Source: Candidatus Gastranaerophilales bacterium (GTDB lineage Bacteria; Cyanobacteriota; Vampirovibrionia; Gastranaerophilales; Gastranaerophilaceae). Taken from it: a DNA stretch of 64,000 nt. How positions within the stretch are numbered: the first letter of the stretch is position 1; each line of letters begins with the position of its first letter. Location: assembly GCA_944325835.1 (NCBI GenBank), contig CALVBO010000002.1, positions 124,001 to 188,000 on the forward strand. Direction: 5' to 3'. Both the position numbers and the translations under genes were made by a program. A model generated the notes under the pieces. It saw only the letters and a program-made list of their open reading frames with translations. It did not search any database and was not told the DNA's origin. Shown piece after piece: positions 4,906 through 61,640 of this stretch.

Positions 4906-5184
4906 GTCTGGGTGGCAAAATAATCGTTGAAAATTTAATATAAATATTATGTCTGGGTGGCACTCTGCCGAGAAAAACGATTAAGTATCGTTTTTCGAGA
5001 GGGTGCGAAAGCACTTCCGCCACCGTGGATGCTAAAACAATCGTTGAAAACTTAATATAAACATTATGTCTGGGTGGCACTCTGCCGAGAAAAACGATTA
5101 AGTATCGTTTTTCGAGAGGGTGCGAAAGCACTTCCGCCACCGTGGATGCTAAAACAATCGTTGAAAACTTAATATAAACATTAT
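4906..5184 (+). repeat. tRNA-Leu 5'-end duplications carrying a hairpin module
   Basis: The first 11 nt of tRNA-Leu (GTCTGGGTGGC) occur at 4906, 4951 and 5068 before the intact gene at 5185. The 117-bp units 4951-5067 and 5068-5184 are identical. Each holds the tRNA 5' end, then the module ACTCTGCCGA-hairpin-CGAGAGG, a GTGC-GAAA-GCAC hairpin, TTCCGCCACC (reverse complement of tRNA nt 7-16) and an AT-rich promoter-like stretch ending TATAAA plus 6 nt. GGTGGC and GCCACC would close a three-way junction in RNA or extruded DNA. Confidence 0.9.
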
Positions 5185-5266
5185 GTCTGGGTGGCGGAAT
5201 TGGTAGACGCGCACGATTCAGGTTCGTGTGGAGAGATCCTTGAGGGTTCAAACCCCTTCCCGGACA
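5185..5266 (+). tRNA. tRNA-Leu (CAG)
   Basis: The 82-nt gene folds with a 7-bp acceptor stem (GTCTGGG with CCCGGAC, discriminator A), a D arm, and an anticodon arm CACGA-TTCAGGT-TCGTG giving anticodon CAG. It also has a variable arm and a T arm with TTCAAAC. CCA is not encoded. It is the only complete copy after three partial 5' copies. Its proximal promoter is TATAAA ending 6 nt before the first base. Confidence 0.93.
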
Positions 5267-5274
5267 TTTTTTAT

Positions 5275-5620
5275 GCCCGAGAAAGACTCGGCTGAGCCGT
5301 AGTCATATTTGCAACAAACGCTAACATAAGCATATAAACACAATGGAGAAACCACTCAATGCCGAGTCTTTTGAGTGGCACTCTGCCGAGCAAAACAATC
5401 CAGTGAATTGTTTTGCGAGAGGTAGACAGCACTCTGCCGAACAAACGATTGAGTATCGTTTGTGAGAGGTAAGCAGGTTGACCTGCGTTACCCCGCCTGA
5501 CAAATCAAAGATTAGAAACGGCGGTGATATTATGCTCGCCTGCTCCCCTCGTTCCCACGAGGTGACACTGCGAGCATCGGCTTACGCTTTGAGCAGGGCA
5601 AGCAGGCGACGAAGAACTGC
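5275..5620 (-). mobile_element. Long composite repeat element (class II)
   Basis: Reading the minus strand, the 346-bp element starts GCAGTTCTTCG (5620) and ends CTTTCTCGGGC (5275). It contains a CGCCTGCT/AGCAGGCG hairpin, a CCGCC/GGCGG hairpin, and two tandem ACTCTGCCGA modules at about 5380 and 5430. The 7-mer TTTTTAT occurs on both flanks (5268-5274 and 5621-5627), as expected of a target duplication. It sits between tRNA-Leu and the 3' end of the gamma-CA gene. No protein gene of its own is visible. Confidence 0.8.
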
Positions 5621-5629
5621 TTTTTATAT

Positions 5630-15191: not shown

Positions 15192-15209
15192 ACTGCTCCT
15201 TTCAATAAA

Positions 15210-15320
15210 GCAGTTCTCCGCCGCACCGCCTCGCTGAACCGCGAGCCGTTAGCGGCTGCGCTGTCTAATACGCCACTCAAAAGACTCGCTCACGTTCCTT
15301 ATCGCGAGTCTTTCTCGGAC
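15210..15320 (+). mobile_element. Short repeat element (class I, 111 bp)
   Basis: Starts GCAGTTCTCCG and ends CTTTCTCGGAC. It carries the AGCCG-TTAG-CGGCT hairpin and the outer GACTCGC/GCGAGTC stem, but lacks the inner GAGTTGC hairpin of the 146-148 bp copies. AATAAA flanks the left and AGTAAA the right side. It lies in the 333-bp gap between the 64-aa gene and the small HTH gene. Confidence 0.8.
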
Positions 15321-15423
15321 AGTAAATTTTGTTAAACTTTTCTCCATTAATACATCATATTTATGAGTATTTATTCATAATATTAACATATATTCAAAGA
15401 TATGTCAATATAATACTGAAATG

Positions 15424-26310: not shown

Positions 26311-26336
26311 ATTAAGACCTCGAAAACTTTAATAAA

Positions 26337-26484
26337 GCAGTTCTCCGCCACTTCCGCCCCGCTGAACCGCGGGTCGCGCGTGGCTACGCTGTCTAATACG
26401 CCACTCAAAAGTTTCGCTTGCGTGAGCGGGAGTTGCTACGCAACTCATTCACGCCACGTTCCTTATCGCGAAACTTTCTCGGAC
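26337..26484 (+). mobile_element. Repeat element (class I, 148 bp) with compensatory stem changes
   Basis: Starts GCAGTTCTCCG and ends CTTTCTCGGAC. The outer stem reads GTTTCGC/GCGAAAC where other copies read GACTCGC/GCGAGTC, so both arms changed together. The inner arms GCGTGA/TCACGC and GAGTTGC/GCAACTC are intact. Flanks are AATAAA and AATTAAA. It lies just upstream of the GTG start of the HAD gene, on the opposite strand. Confidence 0.82.
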
Positions 26485-26563
26485 AATTAAAACAATATAA
26501 AATCAAACAAACACCATTGTCAATTAAATTTTTACGATTAGTGTAACATTTTATTAACACCTC

Positions 26564-27241: not shown

Positions 27242-28587
27242 ATGAAACGACGCGAATTTATTATAAACTCTGCGCTTGCAATAGGCGGTACCGCCCTATT
27301 AACCGGCTGCGGGGAGAAAAAAATTATTTTATCCGAAAAACCAGATTGCAAAACGCAAATATAAAGATATAGAAGTTCCGTTGCTGGGGCTTGGCTGTAT
27401 GCGGCTTCCGATGAAAGGTGATGAAGTCGATATGCAGGAACTCGAAAGAATGGTCGAATACTGCATGCAGCACGGTGCAAACTACTTTGATACCGCATAT
27501 ATGTACGTTGACGGGAAATCCGAAACCGCTGTCGGCAAAGTGTTAAAAAATTATAACAGAAAAGACCTTATCATTGCGGATAAAAGCCCTGCGATGTATA
27601 TAAAATCAAAAGATGATGTCAGAAGAATTTTTGAAGAGCAGCTGAATAAAGCAGTTCTCCGCCGCACCGCCTCGCTGAACCGCGAGCCGTTAGCGGCTGC
27701 GCTGTCTAATACGCCACTCAAAAGACTCGCTTGCGTGAGCGGGAGTTGCTTCGCAACTCATTCACGCCACGTTCCTTATCGCGAGTCTTTCTCGGACAAA
27801 AAAATGCCAGACAGATTATTTTGACTTCTATATGGTTCATAATATTAATAAAAATACAATAGATAACTATCGTAATTATGATATGTTTAATCAGTTAATG
27901 GAGTTTAAAAAAGAAGGCCGCGTCAAATATGTAGGATTTTCGTTCCACGGAACACCTGATATGCTTAAAGAAGTTGCCCCTGAACACCCGTGGGATTTTG
28001 CCCAGCTCCAGATTAACTATCTTGACTGGGATGTTGTTAAGGCAAAAGAACAGTATGATATCGTTCAATCACACAATATTCCTGTAACGGTTATGGAACC
28101 GCTGCGCGGCGGCGGGCTGGTTAATTTGAGTGAAAAAGCGCTCGCGAAATTAAAAGAATACTATCCTGACACCACCCCTGCGGCTTTCGGCTTAAGGTGG
28201 GCTGCCAGCAGGAAAAATGTTATCACAGTATTAAGCGGAATGAGCAATCTGCAGCAGGTTAAAGAAAACATCCAGACTTTTATCAACTATAAAGATATGG
28301 ATGAAAAAGAAAATCTTGCAGCAAAAGAAGTTGCAAAAGTTATCCAATCACAGGGTGAAATCAATTGTACAGCATGCAAATACTGTATGGAAGTTTGTCC
28401 GAGAGGTATAAATATTCCGGCGATATTTTCCTTGTATAATCAATATAAGACCACAGGGAATAAAATGCTTTTCTCCATTTACTACAACACGCTGGATGAA
28501 AGAGAAAGAGCTGATAAGTGTATAGCCTGCAATTTGTGTAATACGAACTGCCCGCAGGCGCTGCGGCATTCTGGGCATTTAAAAAAA
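27242..28587 (+). pseudogene. Tat-exported aldo/keto reductase with Fe-S domain, disrupted
   Basis: The gene starts MKRREFIINSALAIGG (twin-arginine signal, then LTGC lipobox) behind AGGAGG. It then shifts frame near an A7 tract (27317-27323); removing one A restores KRKYKDIEVPLLGLGCMRLP. The reductase continues to EEQLNK, where a 147-bp repeat element is inserted at 27651. It resumes as CQTDYFDFYMVHNINKN and ends with two Cys clusters (CTACKYCMEVCP and CIACNLCNTNCP). A second element follows directly at 28588. With both lesions no full-length enzyme can be made. The parent family are periplasmic NAD(P)H-type oxidoreductases with ferredoxin tails. Confidence 0.85.
27651..27797 (+). mobile_element. 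Repeat element (class I, 147 bp) inserted in aldo/keto reductase gene
   Basis: GCAGTTCTCCG...CTTTCTCGGAC, with all stems seen in the 26337 and 59247 copies. The interrupted codons are recognisable on both sides: AATAAA before, and AAAAAAA-TGCCAGACAGAT after. The reading frame stays open through the element for 49 codons, then is shifted by one on exit. Confidence 0.9.
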
Positions 28588-28913
28588 GCAGTTCTCCGTC
28601 GCCTGCTTGCCCTGCTCAAAGCGTAAGCCGATGCTCGCAGTGTCACCTCGTGGGAACGAGGGGAGCAGGCGAGCATAATATCACCGCCGTTTCTAATCTT
28701 TGATTTGTCAGGCGGGGTAACGCAGGTCAACCTGCTTACCTCTCACAAACGATACTCAATCGTTTGTTCGGCAGAGTGCTGTCTACCTCTCGCAAAACAA
28801 TTCACTGGATTGTTTTGCTCGGCAGAGTGCCACTCAAAAGACTCGCTTGCGTAAGCGGGAGTTGCTCCGTAACTCATTCACGACACGTTCCTTATTGCGA
28901 GTCTTTCTCGTAC
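28588..28913 (+). mobile_element. Composite repeat element (class II, 326 bp) between two broken genes
   Basis: Starts GCAGTTCTCCG, has the CGCCTGCT/AGCAGGCG and CCGCC/GGCGG hairpins, and two inverted modules (TCGGCAGAGT at about 28768 and 28820). It then carries the GAGTTGC-type 3' half and ends CTTTCTCGTAC. Runs of 7 and 6 A flank it. The left half is like the 5275 and 43247 copies and the right half like the class I copies. Confidence 0.85.
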
Positions 28914-29741
28914 AAAAAAGCGAAAAAAGATTTTAACAAAGAAAGTATTTTACCGACAATCGCGTTGACTTCATTTGTCTTTGCGCTGCAGATGATTAAT
29001 TTTTCCGTTCCAACAACCGCCTCAAGCGGCCATATCGTCGGCGGGCTTTTACTTGCGGCACTGCTCGGACCTTATGCCGGCTTACTTGCAATCTGTTCAA
29101 TCTTGCTGGTTCAGGCCGTATTCTTCGCAGACGGCGGCTTAATGGCTCTGGGATGCAACATTTTTAATATGGGCTTCCTTGCCTGCTTTGTTGCGTATCC
29201 TTTAGTCTATAAACCCCTTGCTGAAAACAGACGCAGCGCATTCGGTGCGATATTAGCATCAATTGTTGCGCTCCAGCTCGGCTCAATTGCCGTTGTAGCA
29301 GAATCCGCACTGTCAGGTTCTACAAGTGCTAATATCGGATTATTCGCAAGTTTAATGCAAAGTATTCACCTTGCAATCGGTATTGTTGAAGGTGTATTCA
29401 CTGCCGCAGTTATCCTGATTGCGCAAAGAACACAGCTTTCAAAAGAGTTCTCTTATACAATTTCTGCGTTGTCATTGATTCTTGCAGGAGTAATCTCACA
29501 GTTTGCATCTCCAAAACCGGACGGGCTGGAATGGTCACTGATTAATATGTCCGACTCCTTTGTTGCGCAAACTCAAGGTTACATATATTCGATATCCGAA
29601 TTAATTCAATCCAAAGCCGCAATCCTGACACAAATTCCGTCAGTTTTGGCGAACATAGGCGGACTGGTACTTCTCGCAGTACTCATGTTTGCTCTTTGTA
29701 AACTTTTAACGGCAAAAAAAGTACCTGCTTATGAAAAATAA
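28914..29741 (+). pseudogene. CbiMN/LarMN-type metal ECF permease, N-terminus lost
   Basis: From KKAKKDFNKESILPT the protein follows CbiM (MINFSVPTTASSGHIVGGLL, FFADGGLMALGCNIFNMGF). It ends with a CbiN/PDGLE part (PKPDGLEWSL), so it is a fused nickel or cobalt energy-coupling-factor permease. The usual start with MHIPDG-type residues that bind the metal is missing; the repeat element stands in its place. An ORF from TTG 28764 reads through the element into the gene, but no ribosome site supports it. It overlaps larE by 11 bp, which suggests nickel supply for LarE's cofactor. Confidence 0.8.
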
Positions 29742-33205: not shown

Positions 33206-33264
33206 AATACCTATTGATTTTTTTTAGATTTTTGATGTAGAATAGAAGTATAAATAAAATTTAT

Positions 33265-33378
33265 CGGAATGTAGCACTCTGCCGACGAGAACGATTAAGT
33301 ATCGTTCGAGGAGAGGTGGGAGCGCTCTGCGAAGCAGGCGCTACCAAGCTGCAAATAACAATTGAATATAAAATTTAT
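33265..33378 (+). repeat. tRNA-Pro 5'-end duplication carrying the hairpin module
   Basis: The first 11 nt of tRNA-Pro (CGGAATGTAGC, 33265-33275) run straight into ACTCTGCCGA, the hairpin GAACGAT/ATCGTTC and GAGAGG. A second hairpin CTGC-GAA-GCAG follows, then GCGCTACCAAGCTGC, the reverse complement of nt 11-25 of the same tRNA. A promoter-like TATAAA plus 6 nt then leads into the intact tRNA. GTAGC and GCTAC would close the structure. Confidence 0.88.
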
Positions 33379-33452
33379 CGGAATGTAGCGCAGCTTGGTA
33401 GCGCACCGTGTTCGGGTCGCGGGGGTCGCAGGTTCGAATCCTGTCATTCCGA
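33379..33452 (+). tRNA. tRNA-Pro (CGG)
   Basis: 74 nt: acceptor CGGAATG/CATTCCG, discriminator A, D arm GCGCAGCTTGGTAGCGC, anticodon arm CCGTG-TTCGGGT-CGCGG (anticodon CGG), T arm CAGG-TTCGAAT-CCTG. No CCA is encoded. TATAAA (33367-33372) ends 6 nt before the first base. Confidence 0.94.
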
Positions 33453-33458
33453 TTTTTT

Positions 33459-43235: not shown

Positions 43236-43246
43236 GGCGATATAAA

Positions 43247-43564
43247 GCAGTTCTCCGTCGCCTGCTTGCCCTGCTCAAAGCGTAAGCCGATGCTCGCGGT
43301 GTCACCTCGTGGGAACGAGGGGAGCAGGCGAGCATAATATCTCCGCCGTTTCTAATCTTTGATTTGTCAGGCGGGATAACGCAGGTCAACCCGCTTTCCT
43401 CTCACAAAACAGTTCACTGGACTGTTTTTCTCGGCAGAGTGCTGCCTAATACGCCACTCAAAAGACTCGGCCACTGAGTGGCTACCCCATTTGGTTCATA
43501 CGCTTTAGGTAGCGATTGACACAATTATGGCTCCGGCTCAGCCGGGCGCGAGTCTTTCTCGGAC
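43247..43564 (+). mobile_element. Long repeat element (class II, 318 bp) with 7-bp target duplication
   Basis: Starts GCAGTTCTCCG and ends CTTTCTCGGAC, bounded by ATATAAA on both sides (43240-43246 and 43565-43571). It carries the CGCCTGCT/AGCAGGCG hairpin, one inverted module (TCGGCAGAGT) and a middle part unlike other copies (ACTCGGCCACTGAGTGG and CGGCTCAGCCG). It fills most of the gap between higB and sepF. No coding gene inside. Confidence 0.87.
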
Positions 43565-43574
43565 ATATAAAAAT

Positions 43575-54867: not shown

Positions 54868-56030
54868 AGCGTTTAACACATTGTGCTGATATATCACCGG
54901 TTTCATCTTTGAACACAGAACCCATTACACCTGCATTACCGTTAAGTTGTATAATTCTGTTTGCACTGCCGGGTGAGGAGCTTGTATAAAACTGCATTGT
55001 AGATATATTGGGAATAAATTTTTTGTTAACCCACAATGAAATTGCTTCCTCCTTATTTGGCAGCCTTGCATCGTCCTGTTCACGGCAAAATTTCACAGCA
55101 TCATCATAATAACCGGTTTTAGTTTGATAAACAGGCATCGGGCTGACAACATTTGAGTCAAAAGAATACAACGCCGTTATAAAACCAACATCTTTACCTA
55201 CAGTATTCGGCCCTTTAGAACCGTTAAGGTCATAGATAAAATTTGCACAAATCAAAGGCGAAACAATATATGCCGTAAGCCTTTCTTCTGCCCCGCGGCA
55301 AGAAGGATTGTAGTAGACGACCAAACTTTCGCCGTTCTGTGTTTCAAACGCAGCCGCTTTGGCATTAATCATAGAATGCGAATCTAATGACAGACCGGCA
55401 TAAGAAGCATTAATCATTTTGGAATTTAATTCTAACCAATCAAGCGGCAGGTCGACCGCAGAACCGGTTGTATTAATGCTGCTTACAATACCGCAATCCT
55501 CAAGGTGGTCACTGTCACAAATATTATTAATCTTAAGCACCTTAGCCAGACCATCTGTGATAAAAGTTTCAGCAGCAGTGTCCACTGCATCACTTGCGCC
55601 GGAGGAACTGTCTTCCGTCAGTGTTCCGTAGCCGTTAAGTGAAGGCATAAGCGCGATTGCCTGTGAAAATCTTGCATAAAGAGCTTTTCTTTGCGTGTTC
55701 CAGGTGCGCTCGTTAATGTTTCCCGTCAGTGACGGAAGCGTTATCGCCGCCACCACGCCGATTATCGTGAGGGATAATAATATTTCTGCCATGGTAAATG
55801 CTATTCGACGTCCGTGAGCCCGTAAACCAATTATGGCTCTCGACTCAGTCGGTGTCATTCCGAACTTGTTTCGGAATCTGTCCGGCGACACCGGTAGTTC
55901 GCAACACTGGTCAGATGCTGAAACGAGTTCAGCATGACATGGGGAACTTACGACCTCAACTCCTAATTGGGCGGATAAAGCCGGCCCCCCCCCCCCCCGT
56001 GCAAATTGTTACATTCCTCTGTTTTTTCAT
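54866..56030 (-). CDS. Prepilin-like protein with poly-G leader (frame OFF as sequenced)
   Basis: The body has a prepilin helix FTMAEILLSLTIIGVV, a conserved LNGSKGPNTVGKDVGFI segment and a C-terminus QCVKR, like the 60.6-kb paralogue. The only start with a ribosome site is ATG 56030 (AAAGGA 7 nt upstream); its leader MKKQRNVTICT enters a G14 tract. G13 would read straight into the prepilin frame. G14 stops after about 14 further codons at TGA. An internal GTG at 55891 opens the body but lacks a Shine-Dalgarno site. The leader also contains a dispersed palindromic repeat (55853-55939). Probably a phase-variable surface or pilus-associated protein. Confidence 0.8.
55853..55939 (-). repeat. Dispersed palindromic repeat inside prepilin leader
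   Basis: Contains CATGCTGAACTCGTTTCAGC and ATTCCGAAACAAGTTCGGAA, both self-complementary, joined by a variable centre. It reads in frame with the prepilin body (CHAELVSASD...DRFRNKFGMT). The 15424-15511 repeat is related. Confidence 0.7.
55985..55998 (-). repeat. G14 homopolymer tract
   Basis: Fourteen consecutive G on the coding strand, 32 nt after the leader ATG. Such runs mutate by slipped-strand mispairing and switch the reading frame. Confidence 0.9.
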
Positions 56031-57747: not shown

Positions 57748-57962
57748 ACGTCGCTATCGTAGTGTTTCGCCACCTGCTGCCCCCGCTCACGCGCGGTCAC
57801 ACTGTGGCTACACCGGCTGACGCATATAAAATACCATGAGCACAATCTTTTTTCAAGAAAAAACATTACAATTTGTAAAATTTTACCGCTAAGTAGCAAA
57901 AAAATATCTTTATCTGCATTGATATGCTATCATCAAAGTATCTTCACAAGTGGAGGCTGCAA

Positions 57963-58757: not shown

Positions 58758-59245
58758 TGTATATTACCCCGGTCAATAACGTTATATATTTTCGTGCTAA
58801 AACTACCGATGAGGACAGGGACAAGAAAAAAGTTACACCTCAAGACGCCGCGGTAGCAACCGGTGCTGCCGGCGCAACAGGTTCTGCAATAGCGAGCAAA
58901 GGAACATTTAAATCGTTTTCACAGGCAAACAAAAAACTTAATACGACCGCTAAAAATCTTAAAACCGGACTTGAAACCGCAACAGATGTTTCAAAAAAAG
59001 CTCACGGAATACTCGGTAAATTCAAAGCCAACTGCCTGCATTTTAAAGAAAAATTTATAGATTTCGGCAAAGGCGTTTCAAACTCAAACCTTCTGAAACC
59101 AATTCTTGAAAGTAAGGCCTACAAAGGTGCCGCAACCGTTGCCGGCGGCGCAACAGCAGGCATCGTTGCGATCTCCGGAATAGGCGAAATGTTCAATACT
59201 TTCGCTAAAAAAGCCCAACAGTTTACAACAGACGCTGATGAATAA
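58757..59245 (+). CDS. Unknown protein with IYFRAK motif (162 aa)
   Basis: Starts MYITPVNNVIYFRAKTTDED, again with the short N-terminal motif. It has Ala/Gly/Thr-rich segments (ATGAAGATGSAIASKG; GAATVAGGATAGIVAISG) that may be membrane-active, between Lys-rich regions. It is translationally coupled to the 264-aa gene. A repeat element begins within 2 bp of its stop codon. Function unknown. Confidence 0.77.
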   Translation: MYITPVNNVIYFRAKTTDEDRDKKKVTPQDAAVATGAAGATGSAIASKGTFKSFSQANKKLNTTAKNLKTGLETATDVSKKAHGILGKFKANCLHFKEKFIDFGKGVSNSNLLKPILESKAYKGAATVAGGATAGIVAISGIGEMFNTFAKKAQQFTTDADE

Positions 59246-59246
59246 A

Positions 59247-59392
59247 GCAGTTCTCCGCCGCACCGCCTCGCTGAACCGCGAGCCGTAGCGGCTGCGCTGT
59301 CTAATACGCCGCTCAAAAGACTCGCTTGCGTGAACGGGTGTTGCTACGCAACTTATTCACACAACGTTCCTTATCGCGAGTCTTTCTCGGAC
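59247..59392 (+). mobile_element. Repeat element (class I, 146 bp) after 162-aa gene
   Basis: GCAGTTCTCCG...CTTTCTCGGAC with all class I stems. The inner stem changes (GCGTGA to GCGTGAA, TCACGC to TTCACAC) weaken it compared with other copies. Left flank AATAAA includes the stop codon of the 162-aa gene; right flank AATTAA. Its last bases (CGGACA) lie 17 bp before the TAAAAT box of folP. Confidence 0.85.
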
Positions 59393-59422
59393 AATTAAGA
59401 CTTTTTATGCTAAAATTCTTTT

Positions 59423-60574: not shown

Positions 60575-61640
60575 TTAACGTTTGACGCACCGCACCGCGA
60601 GGTTGTCAATAGTCATGTGGTTCATAACCCCTACTGAGAACTTGACATACCACGCTTCATCAATGGAAGATGATAAAGAAGATGACCAGTACCTATCCTG
60701 TGTCATATTACCGATTAAATTTTTATTGATGAACAAAGCCCCCAGTTCTTCTTTTGACGGCATCCGGTAGTCGCTATCCTGATTTTTACAAATACCGCTT
60801 ACATCATCCATCGCAACAGCCGTTGATGCATCATTAGGCTGTGGATACGGTGCAACTATCAAACTGTCCGTCGGATAAAATACCGTAATAACACCCATAT
60901 CTTTGCCTATTGTATTTGGGCCCTTGTTGCCATTTAAATCATAAAGGAAATTAGCACACATTTTCTTCTGCACATAGATATAATTCGGCTCGGCTAAAAG
61001 CGTTGTACAGCGCGGATTATAATAAAGTGCAATACTTTCGCCGTTTGCAGTTTCAAATGCGGCGGCTTTGGAATTAATCTGCGAATAAGAATGCATACCA
61101 CCAGAACCGGAAGTCCAAACTACAGATACCGAGGTATTCAAAGGATTTAACGCTTCAAGGTCAATCGGGAAATCCATCTGGCTGCCTGCAAGAGTCGTAA
61201 CTTTTTCCGGCAAACCGCAGTCATCGAGGTGTTCATTATCACAAATATTATTAATTTTTAAAACCTTTGATAATCCGCCGGTCAAGAAAGTTTCCGCGAC
61301 ATTATCCACACCGTCGCCGGCGCCGGGAGATGATTCCTCCTGCAGCGTACCATAACCGTTTAAAGAATCCATTAACGGTATTGCCTGTGACAAGCGGGCA
61401 TAAAGCGCTTTTCTCTGCGTGTTCCAAGTGCGTTCGTTTATGTTGCCGGTAAGTGACGGAAGCGTTATCGCTGCAACCACACCGATTATCGTGAGGGATA
61501 ATAAGATTTCTGCCATTGTGAATGCTAAATTCTTGCTCGGATTCAATTGTGGAAGTCGCTCAGCGGCCGACTCCTCAATTGTGCCTGTTAAGAGAGGCCC
61601 CCCCCCCCCCTGATAAAATCCTTACATTTCGATTTTTCAT
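60575..61640 (-). CDS. Prepilin-like protein with poly-G leader and DUF1566-like end (frame OFF)
   Basis: The body has FTMAEILLSLTIIGVV, then NINERTWNTQRKALYARLSQAI, GPNTIGKDMGVI and a DUF1566-like end RYWSSSLSSSIDEAWYVKF...VRCVKR. The start with a ribosome site is ATG 61640 (AAAGGA 8 nt upstream). Its leader MKNRNVRILS enters G13. G12 would continue as GGGG-PLLTGTIEESAAERLPQ into the prepilin; G13 stops at TGA seven codons after the tract. An internal TTG at 61546 lacks a ribosome site. Close paralogue of the 54.9-kb gene. Confidence 0.8.
61598..61610 (-). repeat. G13 homopolymer tract
   Basis: Thirteen consecutive G on the coding strand, 30 nt after the leader ATG, in the same position as the G14 tract of the paralogue. 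Confidence 0.9.

Follow-up and report, generated by a model that had tools for sequence, protein, structure and literature searches.

The locus under study lies in a 64,000-nt stretch of DNA (the window) from a Candidatus Gastranaerophilales bacterium, the source genome (G000) being a 1.95-Mb draft of Candidatus Gastranaerophilus. It carries one copy, E32, of a short, non-coding, modular repeat whose body reads AAT or TTA followed by AAAGCAG...CTCGGACA. The preliminary description had placed a copy at 26337-26484, which is indeed present, although the span given was slightly too narrow, the true ends being 26331-26485 (AAT plus 152 nt). The parts of E32 and the other copies of the window are listed in the table. 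In genome G002 of the same genus, which is about 95% identical to G000 over two long stretches, the E32 site is filled too, and the 152-nt body is identical.

Coordinates of the repeat and its modules in the window
Feature	Position	Strand	Remarks
E32, whole element	26331..26485	+	AAT + 152-nt body AAAGCAG...CTCGGACA
E32 head AAAGCAGTTCTCCG	26334..26347	+	conserved, unpaired
E32 arm 1 outer stem, 5' strand CCAC	26348..26351	+	partner 26380-26383 GTGG
E32 arm 1 inner hairpin CCCGC-TGAACC-GCGGG	26358..26373	+	
E32 arm 1 outer stem, 3' strand GTGG	26380..26383	+	
E32 linker GCTGTCTAATACGCCACTC	26388..26406	+	conserved, unpaired; S-module site in longer copies
E32 arm 3, 5' strand AAAGTTTCGC	26408..26417	+	
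E32 arm 3 apical module	26418..26467	+	exchangeable; here 50-nt TTGCGTGAGCGGGAGTTGC... form
E32 arm 3, 3' strand GCGAAACTTT	26468..26477	+	
E32 tail CTCGGACA	26478..26485	+	conserved; flank ATTAAAAC from 26486
E13, short form	15204..15321	+	AAT + 115 nt
E29	27645..27798	+	inside aldo/keto reductase gene
E61	28585..28914	+	long arm 1, two S modules
E60	43244..43565	+	long arm 1, one S module, different arm-3 apical module
E24	59241..59393	+	AAT + 150 nt
E63	5274..5623	-	350 nt, two S modules; sole opposite-orientation copy in window
Standalone S module	4961..5008	+	within partial tRNA-Leu copy; second at about 5078-5125
Standalone S module	33275..33320	+	within partial tRNA-Pro copy

The order of the parts is head, arm 1, linker GCTGTCTAATACGCCACTC, arm 3 (10 bp) and tail. 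Arm 1 consists of an outer 4-bp stem and an inner 5-bp stem with a TGAACC or TCNC loop, and variants of the outer stem include CCGC/GCGG, TCGC/GCGA, CCAT/ATGG, CCGT/ACGG and CTAC/GTAG. Short and long interchangeable forms exist of arm 1 as well as of the apical portion of arm 3, and a small hairpin module (S) is present in up to two copies per element, within or beside the linker and in uniform orientation among the copies read. The two element ends (AATAAAGCAGTTCTCC and CTTTCTCGGACA) do not form an inverted pair, their sole match being a subterminal 4-base TCCG/CGGA; arm 1 begins 14 nt from one terminus and arm 3 stops 8 nt from the other. Half elements, made up of the head, arm 1 and CGCTGTCTA, were found standing alone. 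A palindrome in head-to-head arrangement, running from a head through a branched arm to an inverted head, was observed at another locus (L309) and resembles a REPIN-style pair.

In G000, 63 elements with lengths of 51-350 nt, sharing the head AAAGCAGTTCTCCG and the tail CTTTCTCGGACA, were collected from 233 kb (the window and loci around BLAST matches), and five more were detected in a further 400 kb, giving at least 68 copies. Contigs C10, C11, C16, C24, C28, C31 and C38 of G000 have ends that were cut within forms of the element. The many contig ends lying inside the element indicate that the assembly breaks there and that the copy number is underestimated. A weak covariance-model match at window positions 57756-57861 (18.6 bits, E 0.0018) is possibly a decayed copy.

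Standalone S modules were seen within partial tRNA copies, in which the 5' leader and part of the D-arm are followed by the hairpin. An apparently intact tRNA gene lies directly 3' of each of these S-bearing partial copies, and the leader is repeated. The sites are found at 4909-5267 (tRNA-Leu) and 33254-33453 (tRNA-Pro) of the window, and also at L073 (tRNA-Ile-like), L106 (tRNA-Val-like) and L072 (tRNA-Leu-like), with ARAGORN confirmation applying to the window tRNAs only. S modules also occur just 5' of several pilin-like genes (C2:22, C4:88716, C18:27037, C27:4458). Elsewhere in the window, long poly-C tracts at 55983-56024 and 61596-61637, which are possibly phase-variable, adjoin two similar stretches about 5.6 kb apart.

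For 40 elements, the two flanks were joined and looked for in six other genomes of the genus. In G002, 17 of these first 40 sites were empty, 12 were filled and 11 could not be called either way (as read from the search rows). For 22 elements, one or more empty sites in relatives could be aligned; 15 of these alignments had exactly three extra bases, and the remaining seven had other small indels. The three extra bases indicate that the element starts with AAT (or TTA) and that there is no target duplication. The right flank, following the tail, prefers A-T-T-A-A-A over six to seven positions.

The site of E29 is empty in genome G004, and exact removal of the element restores the frame of the aldo/keto reductase (EEQLKKCQ). 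Spanning empty sites were also found for E09 and E61. Many of the 18 cases scored as spanning ORFs were edge effects of a crude ORF caller, and only E29 was confirmed, through an empty site whose frame is intact. The E61 site holds a 153-nt, differently composed version in G002 and is empty in G004. The element is real, widespread and active.

With a covariance model, the element was detected in all seven genomes of the genus, in 33 of 191 genomes of the family and in 10 of 41 genera. The other genera carry a second type, which has the head TCTAATCYAGTGTCG but in most cases shares the tail and the arm-3 loop TCACGTTCCTTATC. When named genomes were scanned, matches were obtained in Candidatus Gastranaerophilales and Gastranaerophilus records, and true elements are present in two yak-gut records. 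A match in Clostridia looks like chance. Carriage by phages was likewise rejected, as 26 viral contigs match a 16-mer from the head and none has a linker or tail nearby, which points to chance. A half element was also observed in L280 (JAMPIJ010000003.1), which belongs to a MAG labelled Fusobacterium; it is likely to reflect a misbinned contig or a transfer, misbinning being the simplest. No account of the element was found in the open-licence literature on Gastranaerophilales or Melainabacteria repeats.

Matched changes in the stems, on which the preliminary description had based its argument, are real. In arm 3 of E32, AAAGTTTCGC pairs with GCGAAACTTT, whereas the copies at 15207, 27648, 28585 and 59244 have AAAGACTCGC/GCGAGTCTTT. 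In the window copies at 43244 and 5274 (minus strand), GACTCGG is paired with GCGAGTC or CCGAGTC, and arm 3 differs there because the apical part is a different module. The small-module hairpins, as had also been stated, vary yet still pair (AAAACGAT/ATCGTTTT at 4940 and 5057, CAAAACAAT/ATTGTTTTG at 5384, GAACGAT/ATCGTTC at 33275), and the 24 distinct hairpins of this kind among all stretches fetched are paired at nearly all positions.

An alignment of 46 distinct short copies was made with MAFFT, which is blind to structure, the structure itself being assigned by the analyst from the sequences. In this alignment 95.8% of the stem cells were paired, whereas shuffles gave 83.2% and sliding of the partners 29-53%; changes on both sides were found in 16 of the 23 pairs. 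The values were highest for arm 3 (98.9% paired, 9 of 10 pairs doubly changed). Doubly changed cells numbered 147 against 37.2 in shuffles, none of 500 shuffles being as high, and only 3-18 remained when partners were slid by 1-3 columns.

Covariation was further assessed against a tree-aware null modelled on R-scape and implemented by us, using a G-test with APC, Fitch reconstruction and 200 simulations. The input comprised 76 of 115 parsed elements, the 39 dropped being mostly S-module or long-arm copies; six candidates from relatives had been removed because they were false, truncated or repeats. Arm 3 and the outer stem of arm 1 were placed by fixed offsets, while the inner arm-1 columns were picked for best pairing and are therefore biased. 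Across all species (61 distinct rows), E ≤ 0.05 was reached by three pairs of arm 3 and one of the arm-1 outer stem (4 of the 23 pairs), and the eight pairs with E < 1 among 3486 column pairs were all in the structure. Six pairs, five of them in arm 3 and the sixth in the arm-1 outer stem, had E ≤ 0.05 when G000 and G002 were left out (40 rows), and columns 80/117 showed up to four pair types across species (GC, AU, CG, UA). No significance was obtained for the inner arm-1 stem in this test, and the closing helix TCCG/CGGA had no double change and no covariation support.

Within G000 alone (19 distinct parsed copies), none of the 23 pairs reached E ≤ 0.05 under the tree-aware null. The earlier claim that paired changes show a fold that is maintained, and not only inherited, therefore holds once other species are added, but it does not follow from the window copies, since no pair is significant in G000 and a few arm haplotypes are shared there by descent or exchange. 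The covariation check that had been proposed with R-scape was, in the similar test used here, positive across species (4 of 23 pairs, in two stems) and negative within the source genome. Selection keeping the fold is supported by the cross-species evidence.

The orientation of the element followed the GC skew: on contigs C1-C4, the head-to-tail strand was GC-negative in 38 of 42 copies (p 6e-8), and orientation tracked the sign switches of the long-range skew inside C1 and C3. Gene strand predicted the orientation of only 20 of 42 copies in the same stretches, and this lack of a gene-orientation preference argues against a regulatory role by position. Agreement with local skew was found for 43 of 63 copies in G000, 35 of 52 copies of relatives, and 61 of 86 at loci of the named relatives, or 21 of 29 once G002 was left out. 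Opposite orientation was seen in the two copies from yak, and the bias of standalone half elements fell short of significance (10 of 15). On the assumption, consistent with the gene-strand excess (rho 0.46, 23 stretches), that the leading strand is the one with positive skew, the strand reading 5'-TTTTAAT then TGTCCGAG...-3' is the lagging-strand template. An orientation bias of other transposons, described by Gomez in 2014, has reportedly been linked to the sliding clamp.

Mismatches in the stems were also compared between strands. On the head-to-tail strand, A.C and G.T mismatches numbered 24 and 6 (distinct stems, three arm helices; counts that are small and non-independent), and the unpaired segments showed the opposite trend, G.T-making changes being commoner. 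The A.C excess fits folding of the strand opposite the head-to-tail strand, and is suggestive only. The closing helix TCCG/CGGA, if real, points the other way, as its G.U-type changes would favour the head-to-tail strand or RNA. The plus-strand RNA fold was more stable than shuffles.

No Y1 transposase was found in G000, G001 or G003-G006, and no RAYT gene was detected in G000 by Pfam or by alignment of 11 RAYT-like proteins. The single Y1/RAYT-like gene of the genus is located in G002 (L245 1300-1941), where a copy of the element breaks up the gene; on its flanks lies a different repeat of its own, GTAGGTTGGGC. Y1 was absent in 7 of 10 further model-positive genomes examined. Other members of the family have RAYT-like genes of about 180 aa, and 19 other loci with Y1 matches had no full element, only loose single-motif matches. 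TnpB (OrfB/TnpB) and IS110 were found in none of 13 carriers, and the control genomes matched. Draft metagenome assemblies can miss multi-copy transposases, so the absence of Y1, TnpB and IS110 is not final.

A reverse transcriptase (RT) gene is present once in G000 and at least once in each genome of the genus. The G000 gene reads as belonging to a diversity-generating retroelement, its neighbours being a bAvd gene and pilin-like targets, and RT was dropped as a mobiliser, not disproved. At L371 2874-4915 (G000:C9) and at L372, bAvd and RT adjoin pilin-like genes with a variable C-terminal domain. An autonomous form, with a gene between head and tail, was also considered. In the 80 named loci, a tail follows within 520 nt for 93 of the head motifs, and no transposase was seen in the intervals that were annotated. 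Odd head sites were contig-edge cuts, half elements ending in CGCTGTCTA, degraded tails, and degraded or chance heads.

The PATEs of Haloquadratum walsbyi are too short to code and contain small repeats (SMR-A), and are defined as non-coding elements without terminal inverted repeats or target duplication and with near-terminal palindromes (PMC3119063). The present element is similar in that terminal inverted repeats are absent, palindromes lie close to both termini, small repeats sit inside as SMR-A does in PATEs, and target duplication is lacking (15 of 22 alignments exact, seven with other small indels). In contrast to PATEs, its stems drift freely with compensation and are extended by exchangeable hairpin modules, and these genomes yielded no IS605-type relative that shares its ends. 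The palindromes of PATEs are related to the ends of an IS605-type transposon; in G000 no IS605-type gene (Y1, TnpB) was detected, and the head sites gave no recognisable autonomous form bearing these ends. IS200/IS605 elements insert into the lagging-strand template (PMC6006769). Duplication-free insertion beside an AT-rich target, subterminal hairpins and orientation to the lagging-strand template (38 of 42 by GC skew, taking positive skew to mark the leading strand) are shared with them, whereas the present element is non-coding and neither tnpA nor tnpB was found. It differs from MITEs by the absence of both terminal inverted repeats and target duplication. The small dispersed repeats of Nostoc and mitochondrial double hairpin elements are, like this element, very short nested hairpin repeats.

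Taken together, the repeat, modular and roughly 100-350 nt long, is probably a non-autonomous mobile element of Candidatus Gastranaerophilus and related genera, which travels in folded single-stranded form at the replication fork, in the manner of PATEs and IS200/IS605 ends. Orientation by replication, together with the lack of target duplication and of a gene-orientation preference, suggests that one DNA strand alone is recognised while the element moves. Recognition would occur through the folded single-stranded shape and the unpaired, conserved head, linker and tail, leaving the stem sequences free to drift while pairing persists. Insertion takes place without target duplication, most often placing an ATTAAA-like sequence after the tail. 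The other strand, which then reads TTTTAAT, followed by TGTCCGAG...CTTTATT or ...CTTTTAA, is nearly always the GC-positive strand. The fold is thus likeliest to be read by a single-strand mobilisation step at the fork, and we infer that it acts as DNA and during movement. The suggestion that it serves as a cruciform or as RNA is not favoured in view of the replication orientation, the clean insertions and the lack of gene-orientation preference. The mechanism appears to resemble that of PATEs and IS200/IS605, membership in either group being unproven.

A second possibility, to which we give clearly less weight, is a mobile element of non-HUH type, using single strands or a clamp at the fork through a new enzyme. 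The absence of Y1 from six of seven genomes of the genus, and of TnpB and IS110 from 13 carriers, would fit such an enzyme, as the insertions are nonetheless clean and duplication-free, recent and oriented by fork strand; however, the genomes are drafts, the families searched were four (Y1, RT, TnpB, IS110), and an autonomous partner could hide in unassembled repeats. Only tentatively do we extend this idea to elements across the family that are addressed almost purely by shape, with an enzyme that is neither Y1/HUH, TnpB nor IS110. Members of such a class might have two hairpins free to drift, set among unpaired segments that stay fixed, and might grow as hairpin modules are exchanged at the loops; their insertion would be duplication-free and would follow the replication strand. 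Movement, now or recently, of a REP-like element by RAYT (TnpA-REP) is improbable. REPs and REPINs follow a single-strand logic (PMC8266576) and likewise form many short intergenic hairpin copies with compensatory hairpin changes (PMC3116915), and RAYT-like genes exist in the family, one of them in G002. Yet Y1 is missing from G000 and five other genomes of the genus, many G000 insertions are absent from G002, the G002 gene is itself interrupted by the element and accompanied by a different repeat, and none of the 19 other Y1 loci shows a full element. Unlike a REPIN, moreover, the element has two unlike arms in fixed order and not an inverted REP pair, and G000 lacks a RAYT gene; a fixed GTAG is absent too, the other strand having GNAG at arm 1, with a varying base ahead of the foot, and CGAG at arm 3.

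Selection of the fold as RNA, whether regulatory or retrotransposed, is an unlikely explanation. Strong covariation of the stems, conserved unpaired segments, a stable RNA fold and wobble-type changes in the closing helix speak for a structured RNA, but position and orientation relative to genes are inconsistent (20 of 42), copies interrupt genes (E29, the G002 RAYT gene), and the window matches to Rfam at gathering thresholds are four tRNAs only. The RT, moreover, reads as part of a diversity-generating retroelement, and orientation by replication strand would need further assumptions. Least probable is that the stem changes are merely inherited haplotypes, spread by gene conversion with no present selection on the fold. 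The mosaic nature of the copies, the differing interior at the E61 site between G000 and G002, and the lack of a significant pair inside G000 are consistent with this, whereas the same pairs change repeatedly across species, with up to four types, and the unpaired segments stay fixed.

The case is a clean example of the repeats of one genome giving weak evidence of covariation and cross-species covariation giving strong evidence. The matched mutations first seen at E32 become a testable system: a repeat that is active, structure-maintained and fork-oriented, carried by uncultured gut bacteria that are non-photosynthetic and related to cyanobacteria, for which ten genera, two head types and empty sites can be compared. 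If the mobiliser is truly not a known single-strand transposase, the search for a new enzyme opens.
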